Below the pieces are notes generated by a model, which did no database searches, was not told the origin of the DNA, and saw nothing but the letters and a program-made list of their open reading frames with translations. A stretch of 64,000 nucleotides of DNA from Gordonia sp. SID5947 (GTDB lineage: Bacteria; Actinomycetota; Actinomycetes; Mycobacteriales; Mycobacteriaceae), in NCBI RefSeq assembly GCF_009862785.1, contig NZ_WWHU01000001.1, positions 2,480,001 to 2,544,000 on the forward strand, given 5' to 3'. How positions within the stretch are numbered: position 1 is the stretch's first letter; every line of letters starts with the position of its first letter. The position numbers and the translations under genes were made by a program. Positions 24,754-45,890 of the stretch are shown one piece after another.

Positions 24754-24794
24754 TCCACTCAGCGGGAAGTGCGAATTCCGTCCACTGAACGGGA
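24754..24794. promoter_or_regulatory. Two copies of the CCRCTSANCGGGA motif between SDR and kshA
   Basis: TCCACTCAGCGGGA at 24754-24767 and TCCACTGAACGGGA at 24781-24794, 27 bp apart. They lie between the divergent SDR and kshA starts. Related sites precede hsaB, the Baeyer-Villiger monooxygenase/flavoprotein pair, the MFS gene and kshB. I see no KstR box in this region. Confidence 0.5.
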
Positions 24795-24869
24795 GAAAGC
24801 GCTTCGCTCGGGGCACTTCGGACCACCATCGAAACCGTCACCAGTCCGCCTGGAGAGTTGGAGGTCTCG

Positions 24870-26040
24870 ATGCTGGGTCACACGACGAATGGTCAATCCC
24901 CGAAACCGAGGAGTTCAGGACGATCGAAGCCGCGGCCGCGCCCACCAGGTTCGCCCGCGGCTGGCATTGCCTCGGGCTGCTCGACACCTACCGGGACGGC
25001 AGGCCTCACCAGGTGAAGGCCTTCGGCACGACGCTGGTGGTATTCCAAGCCCAGGAGACCGGGAAGCTCCACATCCTCGACGCCTATTGCCGGCACATGG
25101 GCGGCAACCTCGCGCTCGGGACCATCAAGGGCGACTCGATAGCCTGCCCGTTCCATGACTGGCGCTGGGGCGGCAACGGTCGCTGCACCGACATCCCGTA
25201 CGCCAAGCGGGTCCCCCCGGTGGCCAAGACCCGGTCGTGGCCGACGCTGGAGCGCAACGGGCAGCTCTTCGTGTGGCATGACCCGCAGGGCAGCAAGCCC
25301 ACCGACGACGTGACGATCCCGGAGATCGAGGGATTCGGAAGTCCGGAATGGACCGGCTGGACCTGGAATTCACTCCTCGTCGAAGGATCACACTGCCGCG
25401 AGATCGTCGACAACGTTGTCGACATGGCGCACTTCTTCTACGTGCACTACGCGTTCCCGCGCTACTTCAAGAATGTGTTCGAGGGCCACATCGCCACGCA
25501 GTACATGCGATCCACCCCCGACAAGACATCGAAGTGGGCACCAACTACGACGATCCGAACTCCACGTTGCGTTCCGACGCATCCTATTTCGGTCCGTCGT
25601 ACATGATCGACTGGCTGTGGAGCGAAGCCCAGGGCATGACGATCGAGACGGTGTTGATCAATTGCCACTACCCGGTCACCTCGAACTCGTTCGTGTTGCA
25701 GTACGGCGCAATGGTCAAGAAGCCCGAGGGCATGTCCGACGAGATGGCCGCCGGCATGGCGGCCCAGTTCGCCCAGGGCGTCGAGATGGGATTCGAGCAG
25801 GACATCGAGATCTGGAAGAACAAGGCGCCCATCGACAACCCGCTGCTCTCCGAAGAGGACGGACCGGTGTATCAGCTCCGTCGCTGGTACGAGCAGTTCT
25901 ACGTCGACGTCGACGAGGTCACCGACGACATGACCAATCGGTTCGAGTTCGAGATCGACACCGAACGGGCGGTGCAGAGCTGGGAAGCCGAGGTCGCCGA
26001 GAACATCGCCAACGGAACCACACTGCAAGCGCCCGCCTGA
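24870..26040 (+). pseudogene. kshA: 3-ketosteroid 9-alpha-hydroxylase oxygenase KshA, two frameshifts
   Basis: Rieske non-heme iron oxygenase that, with KshB, hydroxylates C9 of 3-ketosteroids and so opens ring B. Three frames join into about 390 residues, the KshA length. The Rieske pairs CRHMGG and CPFHDW and the iron-site segment DNVVDMAHFFYVHYAF are intact. Breaks lie at the C run 24898-24901 and the C run 25515-25519; adding one C to each restores QSPETEEFRTIEAAAAPTRF and MRSTPRQDIEVGTNYDDPN, both KshA-like. ATG 24870 has GGAGG five bases upstream. Two independent losses in C runs point to sequencing error. hsaA follows 63 bp later. Confidence 0.9.
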
Positions 26041-26103
26041 CCGGTCAGGTCGCCGACGGTCTACCGCACCCACCCGAGTACCACCACGAGCACGAGGACG
26101 ATC

Positions 26104-27282
26104 ATGAACGAAGCACTCGACAACATCGCCGCACTGGCCGACGAGATCCGCGGCCAGGCCGACGAGGCCGAACGACTCGGCCGACTCCCCGACGAGACGG
26201 CCAAGAAGCTCAAGGCGGCCGGCCCGATCCGCCTGCTGCAACCGAAGAAGTACGGCGGTTACGAAGCGCATCCTCGCGAGTTCGCCGAAACAGTCATGGC
26301 CGCAGCCTCGCTCGACGGTGCGACCGGCTGGGTCTGCGGGATCGTGGGCGTCCACCCGTGGCAGTTGGCGTTTGCCGACCCGAAGGTCCAGGAAGAGGTC
26401 TGGGGCACCGACAACGACACCTGGATGGCGTCACCGTACGCACCGACCGGGATCGCCGTCCCTGTCGACGGCGGCTATATCTTCAACGGTCGCTGGCAGT
26501 TCAGCTCGGGTACCGACCATTGCGACTGGATCTTCCTCGGAGCGATGCTCGGCACCGCGGAGGGCGCGATCGCCGAGCCCATGACGATGCTGCACATGAT
26601 CCTGCCCCGCAGCGACTACCAGATCGTCGACGATTCATGGAATGTGGTGGGTCTCAAGGGAACCGGCTCGAAGGACATCATCGTCAAGGACGCTTTCGTC
26701 CCTGCGTACCGGGTGATGAACGGCGACCAGGTGATCGACGGCACCGCGCAGCGCGAGTACGGCGTGACCGAGACGCTCTACAAGATGCCGTGGTCGAACA
26801 TGTTCCCGCTGGGCATCTCTGCGGCGGTCATCGGCATCGCGGAGGGCGCGCTCGCCGCCCACCTGGACTATCAGCGCGACCGGGTCGGCGCCCAGGGCAC
26901 CGCCATCAAGGATGACCCCTACGTCCTGTTCGCGGTCGGCGAGGCCGCCGCGGACATCAACGCCGCGCGGCAGGAATTGTTGGCCACCGTCGACGCCATG
27001 TGGGACATCGTCGACGCCGGCAAGGAGGTGTCGTTCGAGCAGCGGGCCGCAGGGCGACGGACCCAGGTGCGTGCGGCCTGGCGTGCCGTGATGGCCGTGG
27101 ATCAGATCTTCGCGCGGTCCGGCGGCAACGCCCTGCGGATGGACAAGCCACTGCAGCGGTTCTGGCGCGACGCGCATGCCGGCCTGAATCACGCGATCCA
27201 CGTACCGAGCACCGTCTACCACGCTTCGGCTCTCAGCTCACTGGGCATCGACCCGCCCGAGCAACTCCAGAAGATGATCTGA
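26104..27282 (+). CDS. hsaA: 3-HSA hydroxylase oxygenase subunit HsaA
   Basis: A flavin-dependent monooxygenase of 392 residues with the acyl-CoA dehydrogenase fold. HsaA uses FMNH2 from HsaB to hydroxylate 3-HSA to the catechol 3,4-DHSA. Family landmarks are LLQPKKYGGYE, SLDGATGWVCGIVGVHPWQ, WQFSSGTDHCDW and LKGTGSKDIIV. The ATG at 26104 follows GAGGA. It lies in line with kshA and hsaC (40 bp gap). A palindrome, CCTGACCGGTCAGG (26036-26049), overlaps the kshA stop before it and resembles half of the cluster motif. Confidence 0.94.
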   Translation: MNEALDNIAALADEIRGQADEAERLGRLPDETAKKLKAAGPIRLLQPKKYGGYEAHPREFAETVMAAASLDGATGWVCGIVGVHPWQLAFADPKVQEEVWGTDNDTWMASPYAPTGIAVPVDGGYIFNGRWQFSSGTDHCDWIFLGAMLGTAEGAIAEPMTMLHMILPRSDYQIVDDSWNVVGLKGTGSKDIIVKDAFVPAYRVMNGDQVIDGTAQREYGVTETLYKMPWSNMFPLGISAAVIGIAEGALAAHLDYQRDRVGAQGTAIKDDPYVLFAVGEAAADINAARQELLATVDAMWDIVDAGKEVSFEQRAAGRRTQVRAAWRAVMAVDQIFARSGGNALRMDKPLQRFWRDAHAGLNHAIHVPSTVYHASALSSLGIDPPEQLQKMI

Positions 27283-27322
27283 CCGACCACCACGGAAGAA
27301 CCTGACGGACAAAGGAATCGAC

Positions 27323-28228
27323 ATGACAGAGATCAAAGGCCTGGGATATCTCAAGATCCAGACCAACGACATCGACCGCTGGCGTACCTTCGCCTTCGAC
27401 GTGCTGGGATTCGCGCAGGGCAGCGGCCCGGACAAAGATGCCCTCTATCTCCGGATGGACGAACGTGCTGCGCGCATCGTCGTCGTTCCGGGGAACACCG
27501 ACGAGGTCGTCGAGATCGGCTGGGAGGTCCGCGACGCTGCGGCGCTGACGCGGGTGCGGACCGTTCTGGAGCGGGCGGGTGTGGCGGTGAAACCGCTGTC
27601 GGTCGAGGAGGCCGAGAACCGGCGTGTCGAGGAGGTCATCTCGTTCACGGACCCGACGGGTGCGGCCGTGGAGATCTTCCATGGACCCGTACTCGACCAC
27701 AGCCCGATCATCACCCCGTTCGGCGGCAGATTCGTCACCGGCGCCCAGGGTCTCGGACATGTCGTGCTGCCCACCACAGACCCGGTGGGTGCACTCGACT
27801 TCTACACCGACGTCCTCGGCTTCCTGCCCCGCGGAGCGATGCGGCTTCCGGCTCCGCCGGAGTTCGGCCCGATGCGTATTCGCTTCCTCGGCGTCAACGA
27901 GCGTCACCACAGCCTTGCCCTCTGCCCCGCACCCCACGGCGGAGCGCCCGGCCTCATCCACGTGATGGTCGAGGTGGATTCCCTCGACGCGGTCGGCCAA
28001 GCCCTCGACCGGGTCGTCAAGGACGGCTTCTCCGTCTCGTCCACGCTGGGCCGGCACACCAACGACAAGATGGTGTCCTTCTACGTGCGGGCACCCGGCG
28101 GTTGGGACATCGAGTTCGGCACCGACGGCATGAAGGTGGACGAGACGCACTACACAGCCGAGGAGATCACCGCCGACAGCTACTGGGGTCACGACTGGTC
28201 GGGCAGCGAGCCGCTGGCCGCCATGTAG
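27323..28228 (+). CDS. hsaC: Extradiol catechol dioxygenase HsaC
   Basis: A type I extradiol dioxygenase of 301 residues that cleaves 3,4-DHSA in the meta position to 4,9-DSHA. Two tandem vicinal-oxygen-chelate domains are visible. The iron ligands are His146 (GLGHVVLPT), His213 (LIHVMVEV) and Glu264 (WDIEFGTDG), matching the 2-His-1-carboxylate triad of the family. AAAGGA precedes ATG 27323. It is followed by a strong terminator hairpin, so kshA-hsaA-hsaC form one transcription unit. Confidence 0.95.
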   Translation: MTEIKGLGYLKIQTNDIDRWRTFAFDVLGFAQGSGPDKDALYLRMDERAARIVVVPGNTDEVVEIGWEVRDAAALTRVRTVLERAGVAVKPLSVEEAENRRVEEVISFTDPTGAAVEIFHGPVLDHSPIITPFGGRFVTGAQGLGHVVLPTTDPVGALDFYTDVLGFLPRGAMRLPAPPEFGPMRIRFLGVNERHHSLALCPAPHGGAPGLIHVMVEVDSLDAVGQALDRVVKDGFSVSSTLGRHTNDKMVSFYVRAPGGWDIEFGTDGMKVDETHYTAEEITADSYWGHDWSGSEPLAAM

Positions 28229-28253
28229 CGCCGTCGCGCGTTCCGTGGTGCAC

Positions 28254-28287
28254 ACGAGGCGCTCCACCTGCGGGTGGGGCGCCTCGT
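28254..28287 (+). terminator. Terminator hairpin after hsaC
   Basis: ACGAGGCGC at 28254-28262 pairs with GCGCCTCGT at 28279-28287, and CCACC with GGTGG inside, joined by a G-T wobble and closed by a 4-base loop. It starts 26 bp after the hsaC stop. Confidence 0.7.
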
Positions 28288-28354
28288 CTGCGTCGGATGG
28301 CGAAACCACGGCCGGAGCGGACCAACTGTGTGACAACGAGCACATTATGTGTTA

Positions 28355-28381
28355 CTAATAGGCATATGCCTATTAGGCATA
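28355..28381. promoter_or_regulatory. Two overlapping palindromes before the IclR gene
   Basis: CTAATAGGCAT/ATGCCTATTAG (28355-28376) is a perfect 22-bp palindrome. TATGCCTA-T-TAGGCATA (28365-28381) is a second 17-bp one sharing its right arm. Both are AT-rich and lie 56-82 bp before the iclR start at 28437. This arrangement fits an autoregulatory operator for the IclR protein. Confidence 0.65.
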
Positions 28382-28436
28382 ACGCCCAGCCCGATCTTCT
28401 CGTCCTCGCCACTCGCCACCCGCCCACGGAGGTGCC

Positions 28437-29300
28437 ATGACCCTCGAGATGGAGACATCCACTCCGAATGCCGTACTCGACCGTGTTTCCCTCGTCCTCG
28501 ACGCGTTCGACGGACCGGGGCGACTCACTCTCGCCCAGATCGTGCGCCGCACCGGCCTGCCCCGCTCCTCGGCCCACCGGATGCTCGAGCGTCTGGTCGC
28601 CCTGAGGTGGTTGCGCCGGCAGGGGCGCGACTACGAACTCGGCATCCGGCTGATGGAACTCGGATCGATCGCCGTCCATCAAGACCGGTTGCACGAGGCG
28701 GCCCTGCCCTTTCTGCACGAGTTGCATCGCACCACCGGATTCGTGGTGCACCTCGCCATCCTCGACGGACCCGACGTGGTGTACCTGGAGAAGATCGGCG
28801 GCACCCTCGCGGCCTCCGTCCCGACGCGGGTCGGCGGTCGTCAGCCGGCGCACTGCACCGCTGTCGGCAAGGCGATCCTCGCGCATTCCGAAGATCGGGC
28901 AGACCATCGGACGCCCAGCATCGGCGAGCCGCTCATACAGAAGACGCGCTATTCCATCTCGACGCGCTCCCGCCTCGACACCGAACTCGTCAAGGTCCGC
29001 ACGCACGGGATCGCCTACGAGCGGGAAGAATCCCTCGCCGGCATCGGCTGCGTCGCGGCGCCGATCGGCGAACTCGACGACGCCGTCGCCGCGGTCTCGG
29101 TCTGCGGTCCCGCGGATCGGATGAACTTCGATCATCGACTGGCGGCCCCCGTTCGCATGACCGCCTTGGCGATCTGGCGCACGCTCGAGGGCGGTTCGGG
29201 TCGGGTGGTACCCACCTTGCAGCGCAGACATCAGCATGTCGGGATGCACCGGGTCTCGGGTGTTTCGCGCCCCGGCACGCCGACCCGCATGGCGCGATGA
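28437..29300 (+). CDS. IclR family transcriptional regulator
   Basis: 287 residues. The N-terminal winged helix (about 12-75) contains LAQIVRRTGLPRSSAHRMLERL. The C-terminal effector domain has GGRQPAHCTAVGKAILAH, the IclR signature. It is preceded by two overlapping AT-rich palindromes and overlaps the esterase gene by four bases (ATGA). It is the only IclR member in the window and lies inside the 3-ketosteroid cluster, so a role in controlling part of that cluster is probable. The effector is unknown. Confidence 0.9.
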   Translation: MTLEMETSTPNAVLDRVSLVLDAFDGPGRLTLAQIVRRTGLPRSSAHRMLERLVALRWLRRQGRDYELGIRLMELGSIAVHQDRLHEAALPFLHELHRTTGFVVHLAILDGPDVVYLEKIGGTLAASVPTRVGGRQPAHCTAVGKAILAHSEDRADHRTPSIGEPLIQKTRYSISTRSRLDTELVKVRTHGIAYEREESLAGIGCVAAPIGELDDAVAAVSVCGPADRMNFDHRLAAPVRMTALAIWRTLEGGSGRVVPTLQRRHQHVGMHRVSGVSRPGTPTRMAR

Positions 29301-30232
29301 TCGACCCGGAAGTCGCTGCCATCCTCCCTCGTCTGAACGACGGGTTCCCCCGGGTGGAGACGATGACGGGCGCAGCGGCGCGGGCGGCGATCCGTGCACG
29401 ATTGCAACCCGATCCCGATCCCGTCCCGGTGGCCCGCGTCCATGAGCAGACGATCCCAGGGCCGGCCGGCGAGATCCCGGTACGGATCTACTGGCCCGCC
29501 GCGCGCTATCCCGTCGACCCCGCACCGTCGCTGATCGTGTTCGCCCACGGAGGCGGATTCGTGTTCTGCGATCTCGACAGCCATGACGACCTGTGCCGTT
29601 CGATGGCGAACGGAACCGGAGCCGTGGTGGTGTCGGTCGACTACCGCCGCGCACCCGAACACCGGTGGCCGGCCGCGGCACACGATGTCCACGCGGCCAC
29701 CGCCTGGGCGTCCGACAATGCCGCATCCCTCGGTGCCGACGCGGGACATCTGATCGTGGCCGGTGACAGCGCGGGCGGCAACCTCGCCGCCGTCGCGTCG
29801 CTCATGGCCCGCGAGGAAGGTGGGCCGCGGATTCGCGCACAGGCTCTGCTCTACCCGGTGGTGTCCGCGAACTTCACCACCGAGTCCTACATCCGATTCG
29901 CCGAGGGCCACTACAACACCGCGACGGCGATGAAATGGTATTGGGATCAATACGTTCCGGAACTCGACGACCGGACACATCCCCACGCCTCACCGATCCT
30001 GGGTGAACTCGCCGGCCTGCCGCCGACCCTCGTGGTCACTGCCGGCCATGACCCGCTCGCCTCCGAGGGTGCCGACCTCGTGCAGTCACTCGCCTCTGCC
30101 GGGGTGCCGACGATCCACCACGAGCATGCGGGCGCCATCCACGGTTTCATGACGATGCCTGTACTGAGCCTGTGCGAAACGGCTCGCACCCGGGCATGGG
30201 AAGACCTTCGGGCGCTGGTGGCCCAGACCTGA
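29297..30232 (+). CDS. Alpha/beta hydrolase, hormone-sensitive lipase family esterase
   Basis: 311 residues. The oxyanion-hole motif is HGGGF, the nucleophile elbow is GDSAGGN, and the acid and histidine lie in HDPLASEGADL and GAIHGFMTM, a complete HSL-type triad. ATG 29297 overlaps the iclR stop, so it is translationally coupled to the regulator. Its neighbours include a Baeyer-Villiger monooxygenase. A steroid ester such as a 17-acetate would be a sensible substrate (inference only). Confidence 0.88.
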   Translation: MIDPEVAAILPRLNDGFPRVETMTGAAARAAIRARLQPDPDPVPVARVHEQTIPGPAGEIPVRIYWPAARYPVDPAPSLIVFAHGGGFVFCDLDSHDDLCRSMANGTGAVVVSVDYRRAPEHRWPAAAHDVHAATAWASDNAASLGADAGHLIVAGDSAGGNLAAVASLMAREEGGPRIRAQALLYPVVSANFTTESYIRFAEGHYNTATAMKWYWDQYVPELDDRTHPHASPILGELAGLPPTLVVTAGHDPLASEGADLVQSLASAGVPTIHHEHAGAIHGFMTMPVLSLCETARTRAWEDLRALVAQT

Positions 30233-30238
30233 GACCGA

Positions 30239-30916
30239 TCAGTCGTCGTCTTCGGTCGCCTTCACCTGTTCTTCGATCTCGCGCCAGTGCCCGGGCCGCG
30301 GCCTCGGGAAACTCTCGCCACGCTTTCCGGCGTTGAAAACCTCGTCGGCAGCATCGATCTCGGCGATCAGCTCGAGCGCAAGTTCACGTTCGCTGGCGTA
30401 GTAGCGCTCGGCCCACCGCATCGCGATCCGCGCGTACGCCCAGGCGGGTTCAGCCTCGGCCGCGACCGCGTCGACAGCGATCCTGTGCTGCAACGCCTCC
30501 ACTCGGTCCACGTGTTCACGGAGCATCGCCTTGAGGGTGTCCGGAGTACTGAGATGCCCGAAGGCTGTCCGCATCAGCGCGCCGTGCTTGAGCATCGGCG
30601 GGTCGACGGGAGCATCGAGCGCCCATATGCGCACAGCCCGGCGTCCGGCATCGGTGATCTTGTAGACACGCCGATTGCGGCCCCCATCACCGCCGGCCAT
30701 CCGAGAAGCGGCGTACCCGTGATTCTCGATCCGCTTGAGTTCCGAATAGACCTGACTGAACGACGGACTCCAGTAATAGTGCCGCAGACTCCAGTCCGCC
30801 CACTTCTTGATGTCGTACCCGGAGACCTCTTCCTCGTAGGCGAGCATGCAGAGGACCGCCCATGAGGTCGGAGGAAGATTGGGCAGGTCCTCGAAGCGCA
30901 CTTTTTCCGAGGTCAC
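30239..30916 (-). CDS. PadR family transcriptional regulator
   Basis: 225 residues. The N-terminal PadR winged helix (about 15-100) includes AVLCMLAYEEEVSGYDIKKW and SFSQVYSELKRIENHGY. The C-terminal half is the helical PadR_C/Vir_act_alpha_C domain used for dimerisation. Its start is GTG 30916. It is convergent with the esterase (6 bp gap) and divergent from hsaB. The shared promoter region has an inverted repeat CCGGGACA-N8-TGTCCCCGG that overlaps the cluster motif. It is therefore the best candidate to bind that motif. Confidence 0.88.
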   Translation of the reverse strand: MTSEKVRFEDLPNLPPTSWAVLCMLAYEEEVSGYDIKKWADWSLRHYYWSPSFSQVYSELKRIENHGYAASRMAGGDGGRNRRVYKITDAGRRAVRIWALDAPVDPPMLKHGALMRTAFGHLSTPDTLKAMLREHVDRVEALQHRIAVDAVAAEAEPAWAYARIAMRWAERYYASERELALELIAEIDAADEVFNAGKRGESFPRPRPGHWREIEEQVKATEDDD

Positions 30917-30963
30917 AGGGCAAATGCTACCAACCTGCGTCCGCCGGTGAGCGCACAGGCGCG

Positions 30964-30994
30964 CACTGACCGGGACAAGCCGTTGTGTCCCCGG
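30964..30994. promoter_or_regulatory. Cluster motif plus CGGGACA inverted repeat between padR and hsaB
   Basis: CACTGACCGGGACA (30964-30977) differs at one position from the kshA copy CACTGAACGGGA. It also forms an inverted repeat with TGTCCCCGG (30986-30994). It lies 47-77 bp before the hsaB start, in the divergent padR/hsaB region. Confidence 0.5.
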
Positions 30995-31040
30995 CGGCAG
31001 AGAGTGATCCTGTTGTCACACGGAAACTTTCGGAGGAATG

Positions 31041-31556
31041 ATGAGCCACGACCAGATGCTGACGGAGCCGCTCGATCTCGATGAGCGCAGGCTACGGCGG
31101 GTATGGAGCAACTTCGCGACCGGTGTGGCGGTGATCACCGCACACGACGGGACGGCGCCGATCGGCTTCACCTGCCAGTCCGTCGTCTCGGTCTCGCTGG
31201 CGCCACCGCTGATGTCGTTCTGCCCCTCGGCGACCTCCACCAGCTGGCCGCGGATCCGCACGATCGGCGAGTTCTGCATCAACATTCTCGCCGCCGACCA
31301 GCAGGAGATGTGCCGGCAGTTCGCGCGGACCGGGACCGAGAAGTTCGACGGGATCGGCTGGCGTCCGGGCCCCTCCGGCGCTCCCACCCTCGACGACGCG
31401 CTGGCGCACATCGACGCGCGGCTGGACTCCGAGCACGACGCCGGCGATCACACCATCGTGGTCGCGCGCATCACCGCGCTCTCGGCCCAGGAAGCCAAGG
31501 GCCCGTTGCTCTTCTTCCGCGGCGGATTCGGCACCTTCGACGATCTCGCCGGGTGA
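31041..31556 (+). CDS. hsaB: Flavin reductase HsaB (3-HSA hydroxylase reductase subunit)
   Basis: 171 residues of the HpaC-like FMN reductase fold. It supplies FMNH2 to HsaA. It aligns well with HsaB: ATGVAVITAHDG, GFTCQSVVSVSLAPPLMSFCP, FCINILAADQQ, KFDGIGWRPG and the end LLFFRGGFG. GGAGG lies at 31032-31036, so the second ATG (31041) has better spacing than the one at 31038. It is separated from hsaA and hsaC by regulators and the esterase, unlike the compact hsaACDB operon of mycobacteria. Confidence 0.85.
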   Translation: MSHDQMLTEPLDLDERRLRRVWSNFATGVAVITAHDGTAPIGFTCQSVVSVSLAPPLMSFCPSATSTSWPRIRTIGEFCINILAADQQEMCRQFARTGTEKFDGIGWRPGPSGAPTLDDALAHIDARLDSEHDAGDHTIVVARITALSAQEAKGPLLFFRGGFGTFDDLAG

Positions 31557-31618: not shown

Positions 31619-33259
31619 TCAGTCGGAGGTGGGGTGGCGTCGGATCATCTCGAATCCGCGATAGCCATCCGCCGCGACATCGCCGATGATCTGTCGATAG
31701 ACACCGAATCCGCCGACGAACGGCATGAAAACCCGAGGCTTCCCAGGGATGTTCGCGCCCAGATACCACGAGTTCGCCTCGGGCATCAGCGTTCGCGCCG
31801 CACGTTCCGAGCATTCGCGCACCCACTCGTCGACGGCATCCGGCCGTGCCTCGATGGCATCGGCCCCCATCGCATCGAGTGCGGCCATCGCATCGGCCAC
31901 CCAGTCGACGTGAAGTTCCGAGTGCAGCACCATGTTCGCCAGAACGGAGGGGCTGCCCGGCCCGGTCAGGTTGAAGAGATTGGGGAAACCGGCGACACCC
32001 AGACCGAGATAGGTTCGCGGCCCCTCGCTCCACGTCTGCTTGAGGGTCTCACCACCACGCCCGACGATGTTGATACGTTCCACCGAGCCGGTCATGGCAT
32101 CGAATCCGGTTGCCAGCACCAAGGAGTCCACGGCGATCTCGCGATCGCCGACCTCGATGCCCGACGGCGTGATCCTCTCGATCGGTGTGGTCCGCACGTC
32201 GACGATGTGGACGTTGGGACGGTTGAACGTCTGGAAGTAGTTGTCGTCGGTACAGATCCGCTTCGCGCCGATCGGATGATCGCGAGGGATCAGGATGTCG
32301 GCGACCGCCGGGTCGTCGATGACCGCACGGATCTTTCGTTCCCAGAACTCTTGTGCGGTTCGGTTCGCCTCGAGCTCGGTCAGCTGATCGGGAAAGGTCT
32401 TGCTGAACAGGACTCCGCCCAGGAGCCAACGCTTTTCATAGGCGTCGCGACGTTCGTCCTCGGATACTTCCAATGCCGACCGTGGATGCGGCTGGTGCGG
32501 CGAGCCACCTCCGCTGTCCATCGACCGCCGACGACGCTCGGGGTAGTCGGCCTTGTGCGCCGCACGAGTCGCGTCGTCGAGGGGCGCGTTGCCCGCCGGG
32601 ATGCTGTAGTTCGGTGTGCGCTGGAAGACATGAAGTTCTGCGGCCGTCTCGGCGATATGCGGGATCGCCTGTATTCCCGACGATCCCGTCCCGATCACGC
32701 CGACCCGGCGTCCGCTGAAGTCGATGCCGTCGTGCGGCCACGACGAGGTGTGGTGGACGTCGCCCTCGAATGACGCCAGACCGGGAATCTGCGGGATGTT
32801 CGCACTCGACAGCGGCCCGAGCGCGAGCACGCAGAATCTTGCCGACACCTCCTCCCCGGTATCGGTCCGCACGAGCCAGCGGAGCGTCGTGTCGTCGAGC
32901 GTCATGTCGATCACGCGGGTGTTCAGGGTGATGTCGCGTCGCAGATCGAATCGATCCGCGACATGATCGAGGTATCGCAGGATCTCGGGCTGCGTCGCGT
33001 ACTTCTCGCTCCAGTTCCACTCCTGCTGCAGTCGGTCGTCGAACGAATACGAGTAGTCCACGCTCTCCACGTCACACCGTGCGCCCGGATAGCGGTTCCA
33101 ATACCACACCCCGCCGATCCCGCCGCCGGCCTCGAAAACTGCGACGGTGTAGCCGTCACTTCTGAATCGCTGCAGCGCATACAGTCCCGCGATACCCGCG
33201 CCGACCACGACGACGTCGACGGTACGCACAGGTGTGGTGTCTGATGAGTTCGGGCTCTC
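31619..33259 (-). CDS. Baeyer-Villiger monooxygenase (flavin-containing)
   Basis: 546 residues from GTG 33259, chosen because GGAAGG precedes it; longer in-frame starts (33292, 33403) lack a site and overlap operator-like palindromes. The FAD motif GAGIAG is at 20-25, the BVMO fingerprint FEGDVHHTSSWP at 164-175 and the NADPH motif GTGSSG at 190-195. The length matches cyclohexanone and steroid monooxygenases (about 540-550). It inserts oxygen beside a ketone. In this cluster a C20 or C17 steroid ketone is the likely substrate (inference). It diverges from a KstD-like flavoprotein gene. Confidence 0.9.
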   Translation of the reverse strand, partial: ESPNSSDTTPVRTVDVVVVGAGIAGLYALQRFRSDGYTVAVFEAGGGIGGVWYWNRYPGARCDVESVDYSYSFDDRLQQEWNWSEKYATQPEILRYLDHVADRFDLRRDITLNTRVIDMTLDDTTLRWLVRTDTGEEVSARFCVLALGPLSSANIPQIPGLASFEGDVHHTSSWPHDGIDFSGRRVGVIGTGSSGIQAIPHIAETAAELHVFQRTPNYSIPAGNAPLDDATRAAHKADYPERRRRSMDSGGGSPHQPHPRSALEVSEDERRDAYEKRWLLGGVLFSKTFPDQLTELEANRTAQEFWERKIRAVIDDPAVADILIPRDHPIGAKRICTDDNYFQTFNRPNVHIVDVRTTPIERITPSGIEVGDREIAVDSLVLATGFDAMTGSVERINIVGRGGETLKQTWSEGPRTYLGLGVAGFPNLFNLTGPGSPSVLANMVLHSELHVDWVADAMAALDAMGADAIEARPDAVDEWVRECSERAARTLMPEANSWYLGANIPGKPRVFMPFVGGFGVYRQIIGDVAADGYRGFEMIRRHPTSD

Positions 33260-33337
33260 CACGGGAATTCGCCTTCCGATCGGTACGTTCACTGCCGCCG
33301 ACGCTAGGATCGCGAACCCGTCGCAGGCCAGTGCCTC

Positions 33338-33402
33338 TCCCGCTGATCGGCACAGTCGTCTCCGGTCACCGCCGGTCACATCGCCTCCCGATGATCGGGA
33401 CA
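33338..33402. promoter_or_regulatory. Two copies of the cluster motif between BVMO and KstD-like gene
   Basis: TCCCGCTGATCGGCACA (33338-33354) and TCCCGATGATCGGGACA (33386-33402), 48 bp apart. The second contains a perfect 15-bp palindrome, TCCCGAT-G-ATCGGGA. They lie in the divergent region and match the kshA, hsaB, MFS and kshB sites at the CTGANCGGGA core. Confidence 0.5.
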
Positions 33403-33463
33403 ACGCGACTCCGCAGGCGCCGGTCCTCGCCTAGCGTCGGCACTGTTCACGGAAGGGGACAGC

Positions 33464-35041
33464 ATGCACTGGGACGACGAAGTAGATGTGCTGGTCGCGG
33501 GATCGGGCGGCGGACTCGCCGGCGCCTATACCGCGGCACGTGAGGGACTACGCGTGGCCGTGGTCGAGGCCACCGACAAGTTCGGGGGAACCACCGCGTA
33601 CTCCGGCGGTGGCGGGATGTGGTTCCCGTGCAACCCGGTGCTGCGCCGAGCGGGCACCGACGACACCGTCGACACGGCACTCGAGTACTTCCATGCGGTG
33701 GTCGGTGACCGCACCCCTGCCGACCTCCAGGAGACCTACGTCCGTCGCGGCCCCGACGTGGTGGAGTACCTGGAGAGCGATCCCGCGTTCGCCTTCGAGA
33801 TGTTCCCGTGGCCCGACTACTTCGGAAACGCGCCGGGCGCACGACTCGACGGTCAGCGCCACATCATTCCGGCGCCCCTGCCGGCCTCGGAGCTCGGCGA
33901 TCTGCGCGACTCGCTGCGCGGGCCGCTCGACACAGATCGGTTGGGGGTACCACTGCCGGACCTCTTGATCGGCGGTCAGGCACTGATCGGCCGATTCCTC
34001 AAGGCCATCGCCGGGTTCCCCGATGCGTCGCTTCACCTCGACTCACCCCTCGTCGAACTCGTCGTCGAGGACGGTGCGGTGACCGGTGCGGTCGTCGAAC
34101 GCGATGGCGCGCGCCACGCGATCCGCACCCGCCGGGGCGTACTGCTCGCGGCCGGCGGCTTCGAGCAGAACGACGAGATGCGGAATCGCTACGGTGTCCC
34201 GGGGGTGGCACGGGACACGATGGGGCCCTGGGGAAATCTCGGTCGAGCGCATGAGGCGGCGACCGCCGCGGGTGCCGATCTCGATCTGATGGATCAAGCC
34301 TGGTGGTCACCCGGGATGACGCATCCGGACGGGCGTTCGGCGTTCGCACTCTGGTTCACCGGCGGCATCTTCGTGAACCAGGACGGAGAACGATTCGTCA
34401 ACGAGTCCGCGCCATACGACCGGCTGGGCCGCGCCGTCATCGGGGAGATCGACAAGGGTGCACTGTCGCTTCCGTTCTGGATGGTGTACGACGACACCGA
34501 CGGTGTCGTGCCGCCGGTCAAGGCATCCAACGTGTCCATGGTGGACAGCGACGACTACGAGTCCGCCGGCCTGTGGCACACCGCCGACACCCTCGAGGAA
34601 CTCGCCGCCCGTATCGGTGTCGACCCGGCAGGCCTCGTGGCCACGGTCGAGCGGTTCAACAAGTTCGTCGCCGACGGCGTCGACCCCGACTTCGGGCGCG
34701 GCGACGAGGCCTATGACCGCGCGTTCTCCGGCGGCTCGTCACCGATGACGCCGATCGACCAGCCGCCCTTTCACGCAGCGGCTTTCGGCATCTCCGACCT
34801 CGGCACCAAAGGCGGAGTGCGCACCGATACAGCCGGCGCCGCGCTGGACGGGTCGGGTCGTCGGATACCCGGCCTCTACGCCGCGGGCAACACGATGGCC
34901 GCGGTCAGCGGAACCGTCTACCCGGGTGGTGGAAACCCGATCGGAGCATCGGTCCTGTTCAGCCATCTCGCCGTACTCGACATGCTTCGCCAACGCGCAG
35001 ACCTGCGCGACGACAAAGACGATCCCGAGGAGAACCGTTGA
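33464..35041 (+). CDS. FAD-dependent 3-ketosteroid delta-1-dehydrogenase family protein (KstD3-like)
   Basis: A flavoprotein of 525 residues. The N-terminal VLVAGSGGGLAGAYTA binds FAD, and GGTTAYSGGGGMWFP and the C-terminal YPGGGNPIG are KstD-family segments. NESAPYDRL carries the family tyrosine. The GYSDYYPE loop of KstD1 is replaced by PWPDYFGN, so the substrate pocket differs. It overlaps the isomerase gene by four bases (TTGA) and lies 90 bp before kstD2. It probably dehydrogenates ring A of a 3-ketosteroid, perhaps with preference for a saturated or side-chain-bearing substrate. Confidence 0.8.
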   Translation: MHWDDEVDVLVAGSGGGLAGAYTAAREGLRVAVVEATDKFGGTTAYSGGGGMWFPCNPVLRRAGTDDTVDTALEYFHAVVGDRTPADLQETYVRRGPDVVEYLESDPAFAFEMFPWPDYFGNAPGARLDGQRHIIPAPLPASELGDLRDSLRGPLDTDRLGVPLPDLLIGGQALIGRFLKAIAGFPDASLHLDSPLVELVVEDGAVTGAVVERDGARHAIRTRRGVLLAAGGFEQNDEMRNRYGVPGVARDTMGPWGNLGRAHEAATAAGADLDLMDQAWWSPGMTHPDGRSAFALWFTGGIFVNQDGERFVNESAPYDRLGRAVIGEIDKGALSLPFWMVYDDTDGVVPPVKASNVSMVDSDDYESAGLWHTADTLEELAARIGVDPAGLVATVERFNKFVADGVDPDFGRGDEAYDRAFSGGSSPMTPIDQPPFHAAAFGISDLGTKGGVRTDTAGAALDGSGRRIPGLYAAGNTMAAVSGTVYPGGGNPIGASVLFSHLAVLDMLRQRADLRDDKDDPEENR

Positions 35042-40671: not shown

Positions 40672-40748
40672 GAATGCGGCGCTCTGAGCCATCAAGTAGG
40701 CCCCCGCCGCACGTCGTCACGCCGATCGAGTAGGGCGAGGCGCCTTTC

Positions 40749-40765: not shown

Positions 40766-40813
40766 CCCGTACCCCGGACAATTCTCTGCACTATCGCCAA
40801 CAATCTGCTTGAC

Positions 40814-40831
40814 TTCGAACACCAGTTCGAA
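40814..40831. promoter_or_regulatory. LexA (SOS) box upstream of the DUF222-HNH gene
   Basis: TTCGAAC-ACCA-GTTCGAA is a perfect inverted repeat matching the actinobacterial SOS box TCGAACN4GTTCGA at 40815-40830. It lies 14 bp before the first possible ATG (40845) and 35 bp before the chosen start. Binding of LexA there would repress the gene until DNA damage. Confidence 0.8.
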
Positions 40832-40865
40832 TACATTGAATGGCATGAGAACTTCGGGGGAACTC

Positions 40866-42110
40866 ATGACCACGGTCAATACCGTCATCGATTCACTGCG
40901 CGACCTGCACTTCGACGACATTTCGGATCTGACGAAGCCATCGGCGTTCGACACCATGAGTGCGCTGATCGTAATGCGAAACCTGCTCGAACACCGCATG
41001 GTAACCGTGACCGGCCACCTCGACCGCCTCGGGGTCGCCGAAGACCACGGCCGCAAGATGACCGAACTACTAATCGTCATGGGACTCGCCCCCGCCTTCG
41101 CCGCCCGGCTACAACGCGTCGCCGCGTCGTCGTCATCGTTGCCGACACTGCATGCGCATGCCATCGACGGGGCGATCTCCGGCGAACACGTCGACGCCAT
41201 AGTCAAAGGGGTTGCCCACGCTGCTTCGCGATCTGCGGAACCGATCGACGACGCGACGCGTCTGACTCTTGTGACAGATCTTCTCGGCCAGTTCTTCTCC
41301 GGCGCCACACCGACCCAGATCGCCAAACGTGCTCGTACTCTCGGTAATCAGCAGGCCGACGACACCGGCGGGATCCCTGCGGCCGAAGACCGTGATCTGA
41401 ATGCGCTCTCGAAATCCATCGATACCGATGGTCGCCTGCAAGTCCGCGCCGACCTCGACGTCGAGGTCGGTGAAAAGTTCCATGCCGCCATCGAAGAACT
41501 CGCAAAACCCCGGCCGGAACCCGACGGGTCACCGGACGCGCGGTCGACCGAACGCCGCCAGGCCGATGCACTGGAGACGCTGCTCGACATCGCCGCCCGC
41601 GGCACCGACTGCGCATCAGCACCCCGGACCCAAACACTGATCACCGTGCCGGCGCAGAGACCCGCGCAGGCGGAGCTGGAGTTCATGGGCTCGATCACCG
41701 AAGCCACGCTGCATACCCTCACCTGCGACGGCACCATCACCACCATGATCGTGGACGGGGAGAAGGTGCCCCTCGATATCAGCCGGGAGAAACGACTCTT
41801 CCCGCGGCCGATACGGAGAGCCCTGCATGAGCGCGACAAGTGCTGCATCAAATGCGGTGCACCGGCATCCCGTGCGCATGCACACCATCTGCATCACTGG
41901 GCCGACGGTGGTGAAACCTGTCTGGAAAACGGCTGCTTACTCTGCCCGTCCTGCCACGCCGACGTCCACCACAACGGCTGGGACGTGGTGATGGGACTCG
42001 ACAAACACCCCTGGTTGATACCACCGGCCGCCGTGGACCCCAAACGGCAACCGATACCGGCTCACAACCGACGCACTCTGAATCTCGACAACCTGCCTTC
42101 GGCTGCGTGA
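40866..42110 (+). CDS. DUF222 and HNH endonuclease domain protein (13E12 repeat family)
   Basis: 414 residues from ATG 40866 (GGGGGAA upstream); ATG 40845 or 40809 would extend it. The N-terminal two thirds are the DUF222 helical domain. The C-terminal HNH nuclease motif is CIKCGAPASRAHAHHLHHW, then CPSCHADVHHNGW, with two C-x2-C zinc pairs and the H-H active site. This is the 13E12 family found in many copies in mycobacterial and gordonial genomes. The perfect LexA box just upstream indicates SOS control. It stands apart from the steroid genes by function. A role in DNA damage or element mobility is unproven. Confidence 0.88.
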   Translation: MTTVNTVIDSLRDLHFDDISDLTKPSAFDTMSALIVMRNLLEHRMVTVTGHLDRLGVAEDHGRKMTELLIVMGLAPAFAARLQRVAASSSSLPTLHAHAIDGAISGEHVDAIVKGVAHAASRSAEPIDDATRLTLVTDLLGQFFSGATPTQIAKRARTLGNQQADDTGGIPAAEDRDLNALSKSIDTDGRLQVRADLDVEVGEKFHAAIEELAKPRPEPDGSPDARSTERRQADALETLLDIAARGTDCASAPRTQTLITVPAQRPAQAELEFMGSITEATLHTLTCDGTITTMIVDGEKVPLDISREKRLFPRPIRRALHERDKCCIKCGAPASRAHAHHLHHWADGGETCLENGCLLCPSCHADVHHNGWDVVMGLDKHPWLIPPAAVDPKRQPIPAHNRRTLNLDNLPSAA

Positions 42111-42363
42111 TCCCGCCGATCTCGGCGTGACCCCGGGACACCCGCCCACCTGACTCGACACGCTGATCCGCATATCTTCCCCACGCACCCGGCCCCGGCC
42201 GGGACCGCATCTGTCCCTTGAGAACTCAATAGTGCATGAATCGGGCGGCACCAAACGGTGTCGCGTACCGACGGCCACCGAGCTCAGGATCTTCCGATCC
42301 GACCATGGTGGTGCGCGATACGCGACACCGTATGGACGTCATCTCCGATCAGATCGTCGCCGG

Positions 42364-43863
42364 TCAGGCAGCGCCCAGAAGCCCGGTGGTCTCGGCGATT
42401 TCATCACGTGCCCGTCGTGGCATGGCCAATGCGGTCAGCGCGCCCACGACAGACACGATCGCACCGATCACGAAGGCCAGCTCGAATCCGTCCGAGTCAT
42501 AGAACGTGGCGCCTTCCGCGACCATCGCGACGTGCGAGTTGTTCAACACCGTGAACGCAACCACCGACAGCACCGCCGGGAAGATGCTCTGACTCACGGC
42601 GACGATGCTGGCCGTACTGGCCTGCATCGTGGGCGACACGGCCTCGATCACCAGGTTCGGAACGGCCGCATACGACATACCCTGTCCCAGACCGAGGACC
42701 ACCGCTCCCAGGATGATCGTCGACTTCTCCGAATGGTTGAACGCCACCACGAGCATGCCGAGAGCCATCAGCGAGAGGCCCGCGAGCATGAGCAACCGGG
42801 GAGCGATACCGCGGCTCACCAACACACCGACGAGGAGACCGCCGGTCACAATCGCGATCACCATAGGCAGCTGGAACAGCGCAAAGTCCTCTGCCGACAG
42901 ACCCCAGCCGTACCCGAGGCCCAGCATTCCGGGCACCATCACCATCATCGGCAGCAGAACCGCGAACAGCCCGGAGATCCCATAAGCGACGCCGGCGCTG
43001 ATGGTCGTGAGATACACGGGACGACGTCGCAGCACGTCCAGATCCACCAATGGTGCGGCAACCGTTCTCGCCGACACCAGCCAGGCGACGAGCAACGCCG
43101 CCCCACCGAGGAGATAGGTGAGGGTCGACGATGCGGTCCAGCCCCAGGACGGCCCGAAACTGACGCCGATCAACACTCCGGCGAGACCCGCGCCGAGCAG
43201 CACCGCGCCCACCAGATCGACGGTTGTCCTCACCCTCAGCGGCGACTCGTCGACGGTGACGAGAATCGCGAACCCGATCGCGACCACCACGGCGAAGAGA
43301 AACCAGAAGATGCTGCGGAATCCGAAATCATCGATCAGCCAACCGGTCAGGAACGGCGCCGGCACGGCCACCAGGCCCATGCCGGTTGTCGCGATGCTGA
43401 CCGCAAGTGCAACAGCCTTTGGCGGGAACACGTCTCGGATCAGCGAGTAGCCGAGAAACAGACACGGGACCAGAAATCCGGCCAGTGCACGGCCGGCGAT
43501 CATCACGCCGTACGAAGGCGCGATCGCCGACAACAGGCACCCGGCCGCGGCAAGCGCGACACAGCCCAGCAAGAGGCGGCGCTTACCGAACATGTCCGAG
43601 AGCCGACCGATGACAGGCGCGGTGACGGCGCCGGTGAGCAGGAACGCGGTGAGCAGCCAGGCCCCCTGCGTTGTCTGATAGTGGGTGACGATGAACGGTA
43701 GTGCCGTCGAGATCATCAGATAGCTGATTGCCAGAACCTCCAGCAACAGCACGATGGACGCGAGACCGAGCACGAGCCGGGGCGTCCAGACCCGCTGGTC
43801 GTCGGATGTCGCCGCGCCACGCGTGACGCTCGAGCCCTCGCTCGGAGTGGGTTGTACAGGCAT
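42364..43863 (-). CDS. MFS transporter, DHA2-type (14-TM drug/solute exporter)
   Basis: 499 residues from ATG 43863 (GGAAGG upstream). About 14 hydrophobic segments can be counted. Motif A appears as GRLSDMFGKRRLLLG after TM2, and motif C-like glycine-rich TM5 has ATTGMGLVAVPAPFLTG. The gene diverges in control from the DUF222 gene (convergent ends) and its promoter region carries a copy of the steroid-cluster motif at 43983. It probably exports steroids or intermediates, or imports a substrate. Direction cannot be told from sequence. Confidence 0.87.
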   Translation of the reverse strand: MPVQPTPSEGSSVTRGAATSDDQRVWTPRLVLGLASIVLLLEVLAISYLMISTALPFIVTHYQTTQGAWLLTAFLLTGAVTAPVIGRLSDMFGKRRLLLGCVALAAAGCLLSAIAPSYGVMIAGRALAGFLVPCLFLGYSLIRDVFPPKAVALAVSIATTGMGLVAVPAPFLTGWLIDDFGFRSIFWFLFAVVVAIGFAILVTVDESPLRVRTTVDLVGAVLLGAGLAGVLIGVSFGPSWGWTASSTLTYLLGGAALLVAWLVSARTVAAPLVDLDVLRRRPVYLTTISAGVAYGISGLFAVLLPMMVMVPGMLGLGYGWGLSAEDFALFQLPMVIAIVTGGLLVGVLVSRGIAPRLLMLAGLSLMALGMLVVAFNHSEKSTIILGAVVLGLGQGMSYAAVPNLVIEAVSPTMQASTASIVAVSQSIFPAVLSVVAFTVLNNSHVAMVAEGATFYDSDGFELAFVIGAIVSVVGALTALAMPRRARDEIAETTGLLGAA

Positions 43864-43981
43864 CGCATACCTTCCATGGACACCGACCCGCAGAGCTCGG
43901 GTCGATTCGAAGTGATCGACAACCACAGGATGTGGCGCCAGTCACATCACACTGGCACCGGACCGCCTACACCAGCCGAGG

Positions 43982-43999
43982 TTCCCGTTATCCGGGACA
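43982..43999. promoter_or_regulatory. Cluster motif upstream of the MFS gene
   Basis: TTCCCGTTATCCGGGACA, an imperfect palindrome sharing CGGGACA with the hsaB and BVMO sites, about 120 bp before the MFS start at 43863. The rest of 43864-44073 shows no gene. Confidence 0.45.
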
Positions 44000-44073
44000 G
44001 AATCAGACCTCTCGTGTTCGTCACGAAAAGATCTGCACTGCAACCGAATCGGATCGGCAGGTGTCAACGCAAG

Positions 44074-44110
44074 CGACGACGTGGTCCCGCTGTGCGGGAC
44101 CACGTCGTCG
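44074..44110 (-). terminator. Strong terminator hairpin after the SDR pair
   Basis: A perfect 17-bp stem: 44074-44090 (CGACGACGTGGTCCCGC) with 44094-44110, and a 3-base loop. It starts 21 bp downstream of the SDR stop at 44132 on the minus strand. Confidence 0.75.
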
Positions 44111-44131
44111 GTCAGAACGAGATTCTCGGCG

Positions 44132-44958
44132 TCAGCGTTGCGTCGACCCTGCATCCACGGGCAGTGTGACCGCGGTGATGTATCGCGCCTCGTCGGACGC
44201 GAGGAACAACGCGGCGTTCGCGACGTCGACCGGTTCGATCCACGGGACCGGCAGCATGTTCATCGTCTGGGCTGCCGCAGCGAACTCCTCGCGGGTGGGG
44301 TTCTCCAGGTCTGGCCGGAAGGCCTGACGGACCATCGGGTTCTGGATCATCGGCGTGTCGACGTTGGTCGGATGCACCGAATTCACTCGAATGCTGTACG
44401 GCGCCAATTCATGTGCCAGCGACCGCATGAGCCCGACCACACCGTGCTTGGCCGACACGTAGTGGGCAACACCGGAGAGTCCACGTAGCCCTGCGATGGA
44501 GCTTGTCAGGATCATCGCACCGCCACCCTGCTCGATGAGGTGCGGCGCGGCGGCCTTGCACGTCTGCCACACCCCCGTGAGATTGACGTCGATCATCGTG
44601 TTCCACGCGTCGTCATCCAGTTCGGCCGCCGCACCCTTCGAGGTGATACCCGCTGTGGCGCACACGATGTCGAGACCACCGAGATCAGCAACAGCAGCGT
44701 CGACGATGCCGCGGAGGGATTCACCATCGCGGACATCGACGACGGCGGAGGTCACCCGCGACCCGAACTTCTCGGCGAGCAACGCCACCTCGGCGAGGTC
44801 GTCGGGGTCGATGGCGGTGTCACGGTGGTATCCACGGACCGGCAGATGTCGAGCGCGATGACGTCGGCGCCCTCCTCGGCGAACCGCAGAACCTGTGCTC
44901 GCCCGATGCCCCGGGCCGCGCCGGTCACCAGGGCCACGCGCCCTGCCACGCGGCCCAT
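44132..44958 (-). pseudogene. Mycofactocin-type SDR oxidoreductase, one frameshift
   Basis: Two frames join to about 275 residues. The first (from ATG 44958) gives [19 protein letters not shown] and ADVIALDIC; the second gives [42 protein letters not shown] and LPVPWIEPVDVANAALFLAS. The insert after the first Rossmann strand and the conserved end are those of the mycofactocin-coupled SDR group. The break is at 44821-44830; one added base restores the frame. ATG shares its first base with the stop of the next SDR (TGATG). Predicted to oxidise a steroid or terpenoid alcohol with tightly bound NAD. Confidence 0.8.
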
Positions 44959-45758
44959 CACGAGACCTTCGCCACGAGGCCGGCGTCGACCACGACGCTG
45001 GTGCCGGTCACAAAGCGCGCCTCCGAGGACAGCAGGAAGAGCACCGCGTTGCTGACGTCGACCGGGCTGACCCACGGGACGCCCAAGAGATTGCGGGAGG
45101 CGAGCGCGACCGCCGCGTCGTCCTCGGCAGGTGCGTCGAGGTCGGGACGCAGCTTCGCGAAAACCCGTTCGTTGAGGATCATCGATGTTCCCACCGATCC
45201 CGGATGGACAGCATTCACCCGGATTCCACTCGGGCCCAGTTCGTTCGCCAGGGTCTGTGTCAGCCCAACCACCCCATGCTTGCTCGCACAGTAATGCGCG
45301 GTTCCCGCCATCCCCTTGAGCCCGTTGGTCGATCCGATGATCACCACCGACCCACCCGAGTTCATCAGTGGCACCGTTGCTTTCACCGTGTGCCACGCAC
45401 CGGTCAGATTGACGTCGATGACCCGTCGCCAGTCGTCATCATCGATCTCCCACGAGGGCCGCGCTTCCGGGTAGACACCCGCGTTGGCGACCACGGCGTC
45501 GAGTCGACCGAACTCACCGATACCACCGCGTACAGCGGCGGCGAGGCTCTCGAAGTCACGGATGTCGGCGTGGGCGGGAACGCATCGCCCGCCCACCCAG
45601 TCGACCTCGTGTACCGTGCCGGCCAGATCGTCGGCCGAGTCGTCGAGGTCGACCGCGATGACGCTCGCCCCCTCCTCGGCGAGCCGTACGCAGTGGCTTC
45701 TGCCCATACCCTTGGCCGCCCCGGTGACCAGGACGACCTGATCACGCATGCGATTCAT
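44958..45758 (-). CDS. Mycofactocin-type SDR oxidoreductase
   Basis: 266 residues. [20 protein letters not shown] binds NAD. The catalytic Tyr/Lys is in [16 protein letters not shown]. The C-terminal segment [11 protein letters not shown] then [21 protein letters not shown] is characteristic of the mycofactocin-coupled SDRs, whose NAD is not exchangeable and is reoxidised by the redox cofactor mycofactocin. ATG 45758 has GGGAGAG. It overlaps its paralogue by one base (TGATG), so the pair is cotranslated, and it diverges from kshB. A 17-beta- or 3-beta-hydroxysteroid substrate would fit the cluster. Confidence 0.85.
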
Positions 45759-45828
45759 CGTGCTCTCCCGTGAAACCTGTGCATGGGCGCGACCATAAGG
45801 CCGCGGTGACCACCAGATACTCCCGGTC

Positions 45829-45890
45829 TCCCACTCAGTGGGCGAGGGCCGAGATCTCTCCCGACCAACAGAATCCGCCGCTCAACTGGG
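45829..45890. promoter_or_regulatory. Two copies of the cluster motif between SDR and kshB
   Basis: TCCCACTCAGTGGG (45829-45842) holds the perfect palindrome CCCACT-C-AGTGGG. CCGCTCAACTGGG (45878-45890) is a looser copy, 47 bp on. The first shares CCACTCAG-N-GGG with the upstream kshA copy. Both lie in the divergent region, 47-108 bp before kshB. Confidence 0.5.

Follow-up and report, generated by a model that had tools for sequence, protein, structure and literature searches.

A conserved palindrome as the predicted operator of an IclR-family activator, with a proposed PadR layer above it, in a steroid-ring degradation cluster of Gordonia sp. SID5947

In Mycobacterium smegmatis a second steroid cluster, named C-19+, carries kstD, kshA and kshB and lies apart from the kstR-regulon (PMC5962712), and the natural mechanism of its activation is given as not established in the accessible text of PMC10672877. 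In Rhodococcus ruber Chol-4, kshA1 and kshA2 have no KstR motif and are induced by androstenedione and cholic acid, the kind of repressor acting on them being left open by the authors in the accessible text (PMC8228715); for the same strain, a steroid cluster is given with iclR and padR among its genes (PMC6498646). Here we analyze a locus of Gordonia sp. SID5947 that can be compared with both: a stretch of 64,000 nucleotides (contig NZ_WWHU01000001.1, positions 2,480,001 to 2,544,000), hereafter the window, which holds a steroid cluster, an iclR gene, a padR gene and, in five intergenic regions, imperfect copies of a 15-bp palindrome near TCCCRCTSANYGGGA. What recalls C-19+ is a second steroid cluster with kstD, kshA and kshB outside the kstR-regulon, a likeness only, which implies no orthology; what recalls R. 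ruber Chol-4 is the presence of kshA copies without a KstR motif, and of iclR and padR in a steroid cluster.

The palindrome has a published relative. The Lcin1 motif, TCCCGGT[C/G]ACCGGGA, was described in cluster E of Nocardioides simplex, where expression data alone led to the proposal of KR76_18060, described as a KstR3 orthologue, as its candidate regulator (PMC7593942). Lcin1 has the same 15-bp design, is one base away from the pattern used here and belongs to the same kind of steroid/bile-acid cluster; its exact sequence, TCCCGGTSACCGGGA, stands before KstD-like genes in Nocardia loci (e.g. L115 and L116), whereas the copies in the window differ from it by one or more bases. A protein family, a fixed promoter spacing and a PadR layer are not given in the accessible part of PMC7593942. 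A second relation is to the group-1 operators of PcaU/PobR-type IclR proteins, for which the consensus GKTYCRYW3-4RYGRAMC has been published (PMC8222616); their proteins are of the same family as the regulator at 28437, and the sites of the window resemble them in operator form. When TTYCRY-W3-RYGRAA is compared by eye with the palindrome, the inner bases fit, but the second base is C and not T and the centre is S and not W. Group-1 tandem sites lie 18-22 bp apart (frequently, not universally), against 27-29 and 39-48 bp here, and the accessible text of that paper contains the word steroid 0 times, whereas the genes considered here are steroid-ring genes.

We consider it probable that the palindrome is the operator of the IclR-family regulator encoded at 28437-29300, which would activate the cluster and padR, and that the PadR-family protein encoded at 30239-30916 represses iclR. 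In the proposed mechanism IclR would bind the palindrome, whose centre falls some 51 bp before the presumed start points and just upstream of the -35 region, and would, when its ligand is present (probably a steroid-ring intermediate), activate a short-chain dehydrogenase/reductase (SDR) gene, kshA, padR, the gene of a Baeyer-Villiger-type monooxygenase (BVMO), the KstD-like operon, a major facilitator superfamily (MFS) transporter gene and a second SDR gene. PadR would act on another palindrome, rich in AT and placed at the start region of iclR, to repress this gene; with padR itself a predicted target of IclR, a negative feedback loop would be closed. IclR binding, the direction of control, the start points, the ligand and the PadR step are what we infer; what the comparisons below show is the palindrome itself, how it is conserved, how far it stands from a -10-like hexamer, and that it goes with IclR more than with PadR.

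An earlier note on this DNA had listed eight motif sites in five regions, four of them divergent promoters. Aligned in one register, seven of the eight are conserved copies of one palindrome, and the divergent arrangement is correct, the MFS region being the exception. The eighth, at 45878, was dropped, as it is not conserved and has a score of -10.1 with the position weight matrix (PWM) described below, rank 1653 in the window. The seven 15-bp sites start at 24753, 24780, 30961, 33338, 33386, 43983 and 45829, and are listed here as predicted IclR-type operators:

24753..24767, ATCCACTCAGCGGGA, for the SDR gene on the minus strand; hexamer TGGTAT at 24717-24722, picked by eye, offset 30; conserved in Gordonia genomes G032 and G026
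24780..24794, GTCCACTGAACGGGA, for kshA on the plus strand; hexamer CACCAT at 24824-24829, picked by eye; conserved; match to the composite pattern
30961..30975, GCGCACTGACCGGGA, between padR and hsaB; hexamer TAGCAT on the padR side at 30924-30929, offset 31; position conserved
33338..33352, TCCCGCTGATCGGCA, for the BVMO gene on the minus strand; -10-like TAGCGT at 33301-33306; conserved; match to the composite pattern
33386..33400, TCCCGATGATCGGGA, the best of the window, for the KstD-like gene on the plus strand; -10-like TAGCGT at 33432-33437; conserved; match to the composite pattern
43983..43997, TCCCGTTATCCGGGA, before the MFS gene on the minus strand; hexamer TGTGAT at 43946-43951, picked by eye; position conserved, sequence weak
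45829..45843, TCCCACTCAGTGGGC, for the second SDR gene on the minus strand, kshB being only a possible target; -10-like TATGGT at 45792-45797; conserved; match to the composite pattern

The check in related cluster orthologues proposed by the earlier note finds all seven sites in place in G032 and G026: the corresponding positions are occupied, and much of the surrounding sequence has changed. The tandem distances claimed, 27 or 47-48 bp, hold in the window as 27 and 48; across the three Gordonia they become 27, 28 and 29 for one pair and 48, 39 and 40 for the other. The nearest named relative among the loci fetched is Gordonia hankookensis (L114), whose IclR is 90% identical. In the more distant Gordonia G024 (L070/L071) the BVMO/KstD-like region has 2 sites and the kshA region 1 weaker site; the stretches assigned to its hsaB and SDR/kshB regions have no site. 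Two further matches in the window are not counted as sites. A strong one at 44085, which the earlier note did not list, was dropped because it sits in the stem of a terminator-like hairpin; this near-perfect copy (44085-44099) lies within a hairpin whose outer stem is kept in both relatives, and the motif is absent there. The other, at 23217, falls in the hsaE coding region and is present also in L114.

The position of the palindrome relative to the promoter is restricted. Among 311 site flanks, a TANNNT hexamer starts 30 bp beyond the palindrome in 36 and 31 bp beyond it in another 36, with a mean per offset of 1.7. After merging at 60% identity, 54 of the 199 de-duplicated flanks have TANNNT at offsets 29-32, where 2.3 would be expected; elsewhere the count per offset never exceeds 4, and 44 of these 54 flanks come from outside Gordonia. 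Sites of the reversed pattern, taken at up to 2 mismatches for a sufficient number, have 2 hexamers at 29-32 in 124 flanks. In the window TANNNT stands at offset 31 for the BVMO gene, the KstD-like gene, the SDR gene at 44958 and padR; the other SDR gene, kshA and the MFS gene have weaker hexamers, picked by eye, at 29-31 (TGGTAT, CACCAT and TGTGAT), which are largely kept in G032 and G026. If the hexamer is taken as -12 to -7, an assumption on which all start points used here depend, the centre of the palindrome falls near -51, upstream of -35, as is expected for an activator. A composite pattern, CCRNTSANYGGGA-N(29-32)-YRNNNTCG, has 5 matches in the 5.1-Mb genome, 4 of which are in this cluster (kshA, BVMO, KstD-like and SDR); the fifth is inside long open reading frames, and the reversed pattern has 0. 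The predicted sites are established by conservation and by distance to the -10-like hexamer, not by their sequence alone.

In fact the concern of the earlier note that the motif might be due to chance was a fair one, since taken alone it is weak genome-wide; we rejected a sequence-only genome scan as proof because the motif is not specific by sequence alone, and the places listed for that scan are incomplete, some matches known from the window scan being missing from it. The window gives 20 strand-wise matches; 100 shuffles of it give 5.6 on average and never more than 12. If no more than 1 mismatch is allowed, 6 matches are left in the window, of which only three are sites of the earlier note (33338, 33386 and 45829), the others being the hairpin copy at 44085, the hsaE-internal copy at 23217 and 7543, which is outside the cluster; the reversed pattern has 1. 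Control stretches from this genome, 400 kb in total, contain 3 matches, none of them exact, and 1 reversed. In the 80 loci that were fetched with an IclR alignment (1.57 Mb in all), 138 matches at up to 1 mismatch, counted anywhere in the locus, are found versus 2 reversed, with at least 1 match in 61 of the 80; exact matches number 21, in 16 loci, and reversed ones 0. A PWM built from 61 distinct non-Gordonia 15-mers ranks 33386 first in the window and leaves 30961 and 43983 at chance level and 45878 far down.

The question of which protein reads the palindrome was approached by comparing genomes, the earlier note having named PadR or IclR as candidates. The same 9 of 37 Gordonia genomes, that of the window included, carry both the IclR orthologue and PadR, and PadR is present in all 45 mycobacterial genomes searched, which had been chosen since PadR was not seen in their IclR stretch. 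Co-occurrence therefore failed to separate the two, as they are found together in Gordonia and in mycobacteria, and genomes of the whole class were used instead. In 394 of these, with few candidates scored per genome, IclR (E <= 1e-55) was found in 22 and PadR (E <= 1e-30) in 31, and the sets differ. The 12 stretches with IclR and without PadR have 21 matches to the palindrome at up to 1 mismatch, distributed over 10 stretches, with exact copies in 4 (L070, L262, L263 and L268); the 14 stretches with PadR and without IclR have 1 match, in 1 stretch, and exact copies in 0 of 14; a match is held by 8 of the 9 stretches with both regulators. The palindrome is also present in all four stretches (L082, L083, L262 and L268) that come from genomes where the search thresholds gave no PadR (G033, G016, G342 and G191). 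The 18 IclR loci of PadR-free Gordonia and of relatives in the order contain 18 group-1-like palindromes in 67 kb (reversed, 2), and the 400-kb control of the source genome contains 28 (reversed, 4); TANNNT follows at 30-31 for 2 of the 18, with one more in each of the longer stretches L082 and L083. By association, and by association only, the palindrome appears to go with IclR rather than with PadR. Given also the resemblance of the motif to the group-1 operator, IclR would be the better reader of the two candidates, and PadR would more likely act one step higher, through another palindrome.

Two observations on other IclR proteins belong here. Paralogues in PadR-free genomes (L014, L015, L017, L024, L082 and L083) have at or close to their own promoters palindromes of the type TTCCGATGAGCGGAA or TCTCGCTCAGCGGGA, a few of which share the same -10 spacing. 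Matches to IclR on Rhodococcus plasmids were set aside: in R. opacus the surrounding genes are those of an acyl-CoA dehydrogenase, an amidase and an MFS protein, with no steroid cluster annotated, and the stretch from RHA1 is without annotation.

The iclR promoter of the window has none of the 15-bp palindrome sites. Two other elements are found in it:

28356..28381, palindrome TAATAGGCATATGCCTATTAGGCATA, rich in AT, proposed as the operator of PadR
28329..28344, plus strand, element TGTGACAACGAGCACA, which we take to be CRP/GlxR-like; also contains the -35-like GTGACA

The AT-rich palindrome is present in the iclR promoters of 76 of the 80 loci at up to 3 mismatches and of the other 4 at 4 mismatches; conversely, 93 of its 96 matches in 86 stretches are in iclR promoters, and the 400-kb control has 0. 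In Gordonia, at up to 4 mismatches, it stands before 7 of the 9 PadR-associated iclR orthologues, those of G025 and G021 having a degenerate form that was missed by the search and seen by eye. With the same tolerance it was found before 0 of 18 iclR paralogues of PadR-free genomes and 0 of 3 paralogues of PadR-bearing genomes. It is present, again at up to 4 mismatches, within a 250-bp window around the inferred padR start in 7 of the 14 PadR stretches without IclR, compared with 41 of 2800 random windows. This distribution, over iclR promoters and some padR genes without IclR, makes PadR its likelier binder, and its position at the iclR start region would suit a repressor. The conserved form TGTGACANCNNCCACA of the 28329-28344 element precedes the iclR palindrome in 63 of the 80 loci at up to 1 mismatch.

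The reverse connection, from IclR to padR, is suggested by a TCCC element followed by TANNNT 29-31 bp on, found before 28 of 30 mycobacterial padR loci taken from the 45 genomes, with 0 for the reversed pattern; padR was not seen within the IclR stretches examined of those genomes. Of the two steps, that of PadR has the weaker support, because PadR was found in every genome searched that has this iclR orthologue. The AT-rich palindrome also occurs near the MFS gene in Nocardia (L115 18467, L116 19172 and L119 8707; Nocardia cyriacigeorgica), and iclR may thus not be the only target of the proposed PadR site.

The cluster holds genes for an HsaE-like hydratase, an SDR, KshA, HsaA-like and HsaC-like proteins, IclR, PadR, an HsaB-like protein, BVMO, KstD-like flavoproteins, an MFS transporter, further SDRs, a KshB-like protein and KstD. 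Those that enter the proposed circuit are the following:

23903..24682, minus strand, SDR oxidoreductase (profile search), predicted target
24869..26040, plus strand, kshA region (KshA_C and Rieske domains), predicted target
26104..27282, plus strand, hsaA-like oxygenase (best NCBIfam match, below cut-off), in the presumed kshA operon
27323..28228, plus strand, hsaC/BphC-like dioxygenase (TIGR03213 above cut-off, the HsaC model below), in the presumed kshA operon
28437..29300, plus strand, IclR-family regulator similar to PcaR/PcaU/PobR (HTH_IclR and IclR_C), proposed activator
30239..30916, minus strand, PadR-family regulator (PF03551), which is proposed to repress iclR; its gene is a predicted target of the palindrome
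31038..31556, plus strand, hsaB-like flavin reductase (best NCBIfam match, below cut-off), predicted target
31619..33403, minus strand, Baeyer-Villiger-type (FMO-like) monooxygenase, true start inside the listed open reading frame, predicted target
33464..35041, plus strand, KstD-like flavoprotein, predicted target, followed by the genes at 35038, 35432 and 37251
42364..43926, minus strand, MFS transporter, predicted target
44958..45758, minus strand, mycofactocin-type SDR, predicted target
45919..46995, plus strand, kshB-like reductase (NAD-binding and Fer2 domains), possible target

The regulator at 28437 is assigned to the IclR family by PF09339 and PF01614, both above cut-off; with TIGR02431 it scores 125 bits against a cut-off of 284.75, and is thus similar to PcaR/PcaU/PobR and not assigned to that group. 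The protein at 30239 has a PF03551 match of 42.3 bits, the cut-off being 27. The kshA region at 24869-26040 has two frame changes relative to the open orthologues of L064 and L066, owing either to a pseudogene or to an assembly error.

KstR boxes, tested as TNNAAC-NN-GTTNNA, are absent from the five palindrome regions at up to 1 mismatch, the best matches having 2-3, and the earlier note was right in seeing none there. Exact boxes are found at 23821 before hsaE, at 48023 before a KstD gene and at 62786, near 62.8 kb. KstR boxes beside palindrome sites suggest two regulons side by side, and the comparative evidence indicates, as had been supposed, a second, KstR-independent regulator of the ring-degradation genes.

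Other explanations have to be weighed. PadR could bind the TCCC palindrome directly as a repressor of the whole cluster, IclR regulating itself through the AT-rich element; PadR does accompany IclR in 9 of 9 Gordonia genomes that have the orthologue, is found in all 45 mycobacterial genomes, and the palindrome stands before padR itself. Mutants of the PadR-like MSMEG_2868 of M. smegmatis reportedly express the C-19+ cluster constitutively, and that cluster is said to include hsaA and hsaC copies and a PadR-like repressor. We regard direct binding of PadR to the TCCC palindrome as unlikely, because the palindrome is found in 4 of 4 stretches of genomes in which PadR was not found at the thresholds used and in 1 of the 14 PadR stretches without IclR, most of these being poor in steroid genes, and because a centre near -51 is ill-suited to a repressor; as for autoregulation by IclR, the AT-rich element lies beside some PadR genes with no IclR nearby and, by eye, fits neither published IclR consensus. 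A reading that changes only the sign of control, in which IclR binds the palindrome but mainly represses until released by its ligand, the PadR step being separate, draws on the ability of IclR proteins to activate, repress or do both (PMC8222616, in its accessible part); the gap of 29-32 bp to the -10-like hexamer, shared by several unrelated genes, places the site upstream of -35, and we hold this reading to be less probable still. The least probable of these three readings gives the palindrome to a third regulator with its gene elsewhere, IclR being only a companion of the steroid cluster. In its favour, an association does not amount to binding, most loci link IclR to catabolic genes, and few ring genes are found in the PadR-only stretches; against it stand the form of the palindrome, which matches that of the IclR family, and the close variants in or near the promoters of IclR paralogues elsewhere. 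Finally, a chance match to GC-rich sequence might be supposed from the failure of the eighth site and from the genome-wide count, both strands taken together, of 482 matches with no more than 2 mismatches (reversed pattern, 166); conservation in three species, the 138 matches versus 2 in the 80 loci and the peak in spacing refute it for the seven conserved sites taken together, and we give it practically no credence.

Several points weigh against the assignment to IclR that we prefer. The motif is common, as the genome-wide count just given indicates; with the PWM about 9 chance sites per 64 kb are expected at the level of 30961 and about 11 at that of 43983; and at up to 1 mismatch the palindrome is missing from 19 of the 80 IclR loci, as it is from L069, with both regulators, and from the IclR-only stretches L080 and L081. 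For G342 and G191, PadR counts as absent in the sense that none of the few candidates scored in each reached E <= 1e-30, and most IclR-only stretches belong to genomes that have PadR elsewhere. The comparison is also confounded, the IclR stretches being steroid clusters and the PadR-only stretches having few ring genes, so that the palindrome could follow the catabolic genes rather than IclR. The outer base of the palindrome, which reads TCCC and not TTCC, departs from the group-1 consensus. In L066 (15648-15783) an insertion of about 10 bp shifts the padR hexamer by about one helical turn farther from the operator. Three patterns were not chosen blindly: the composite was picked with these sites in view, the group-1-like pattern was written after some of its loci had been viewed, and the padR-site pattern after its own loci had been. 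As to the upper layer, the AT-rich palindrome is near only 3 of the 14 IclR-free padR genes at up to 3 mismatches, and IclR may conceivably repress itself through that element.

Taken as a whole, a two-layer, KstR-independent steroid-ring circuit conserved in Gordonia, Nocardia, Rhodococcus and mycobacteria, with IclR acting near -51 and PadR holding iclR down, is a tentative proposal, to which we would give slightly less than an even chance. In the literature searched, which left subscription papers mostly outside its reach, we found no tested regulator for this motif, nor did we meet a PadR layer, an activator spacing that is fixed, a distribution as wide as this or an IclR protein assigned to the motif; the existence of Lcin1 as a relative of the palindrome is already known.

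KstR and KstR2 leave the control of kshA1 and kshA2 in R. ruber unexplained, as far as the accessible text goes (PMC8228715). Here an activator, its operator, the place of the latter relative to the promoter and an upper-level repressor are named as candidates, which makes the question testable. Strains for steroid drug intermediates are engineered by removal of ring-degrading genes of this kind (PMC5962712), and for this reason a switch that turns such genes off and on has a practical use. If the proposed circuit is true, the pathway would be limited by feedback and tightly silent, its inducer being seen only once PadR is relieved, and the two layers would explain why clusters of the C-19+ type are silent on sterols.

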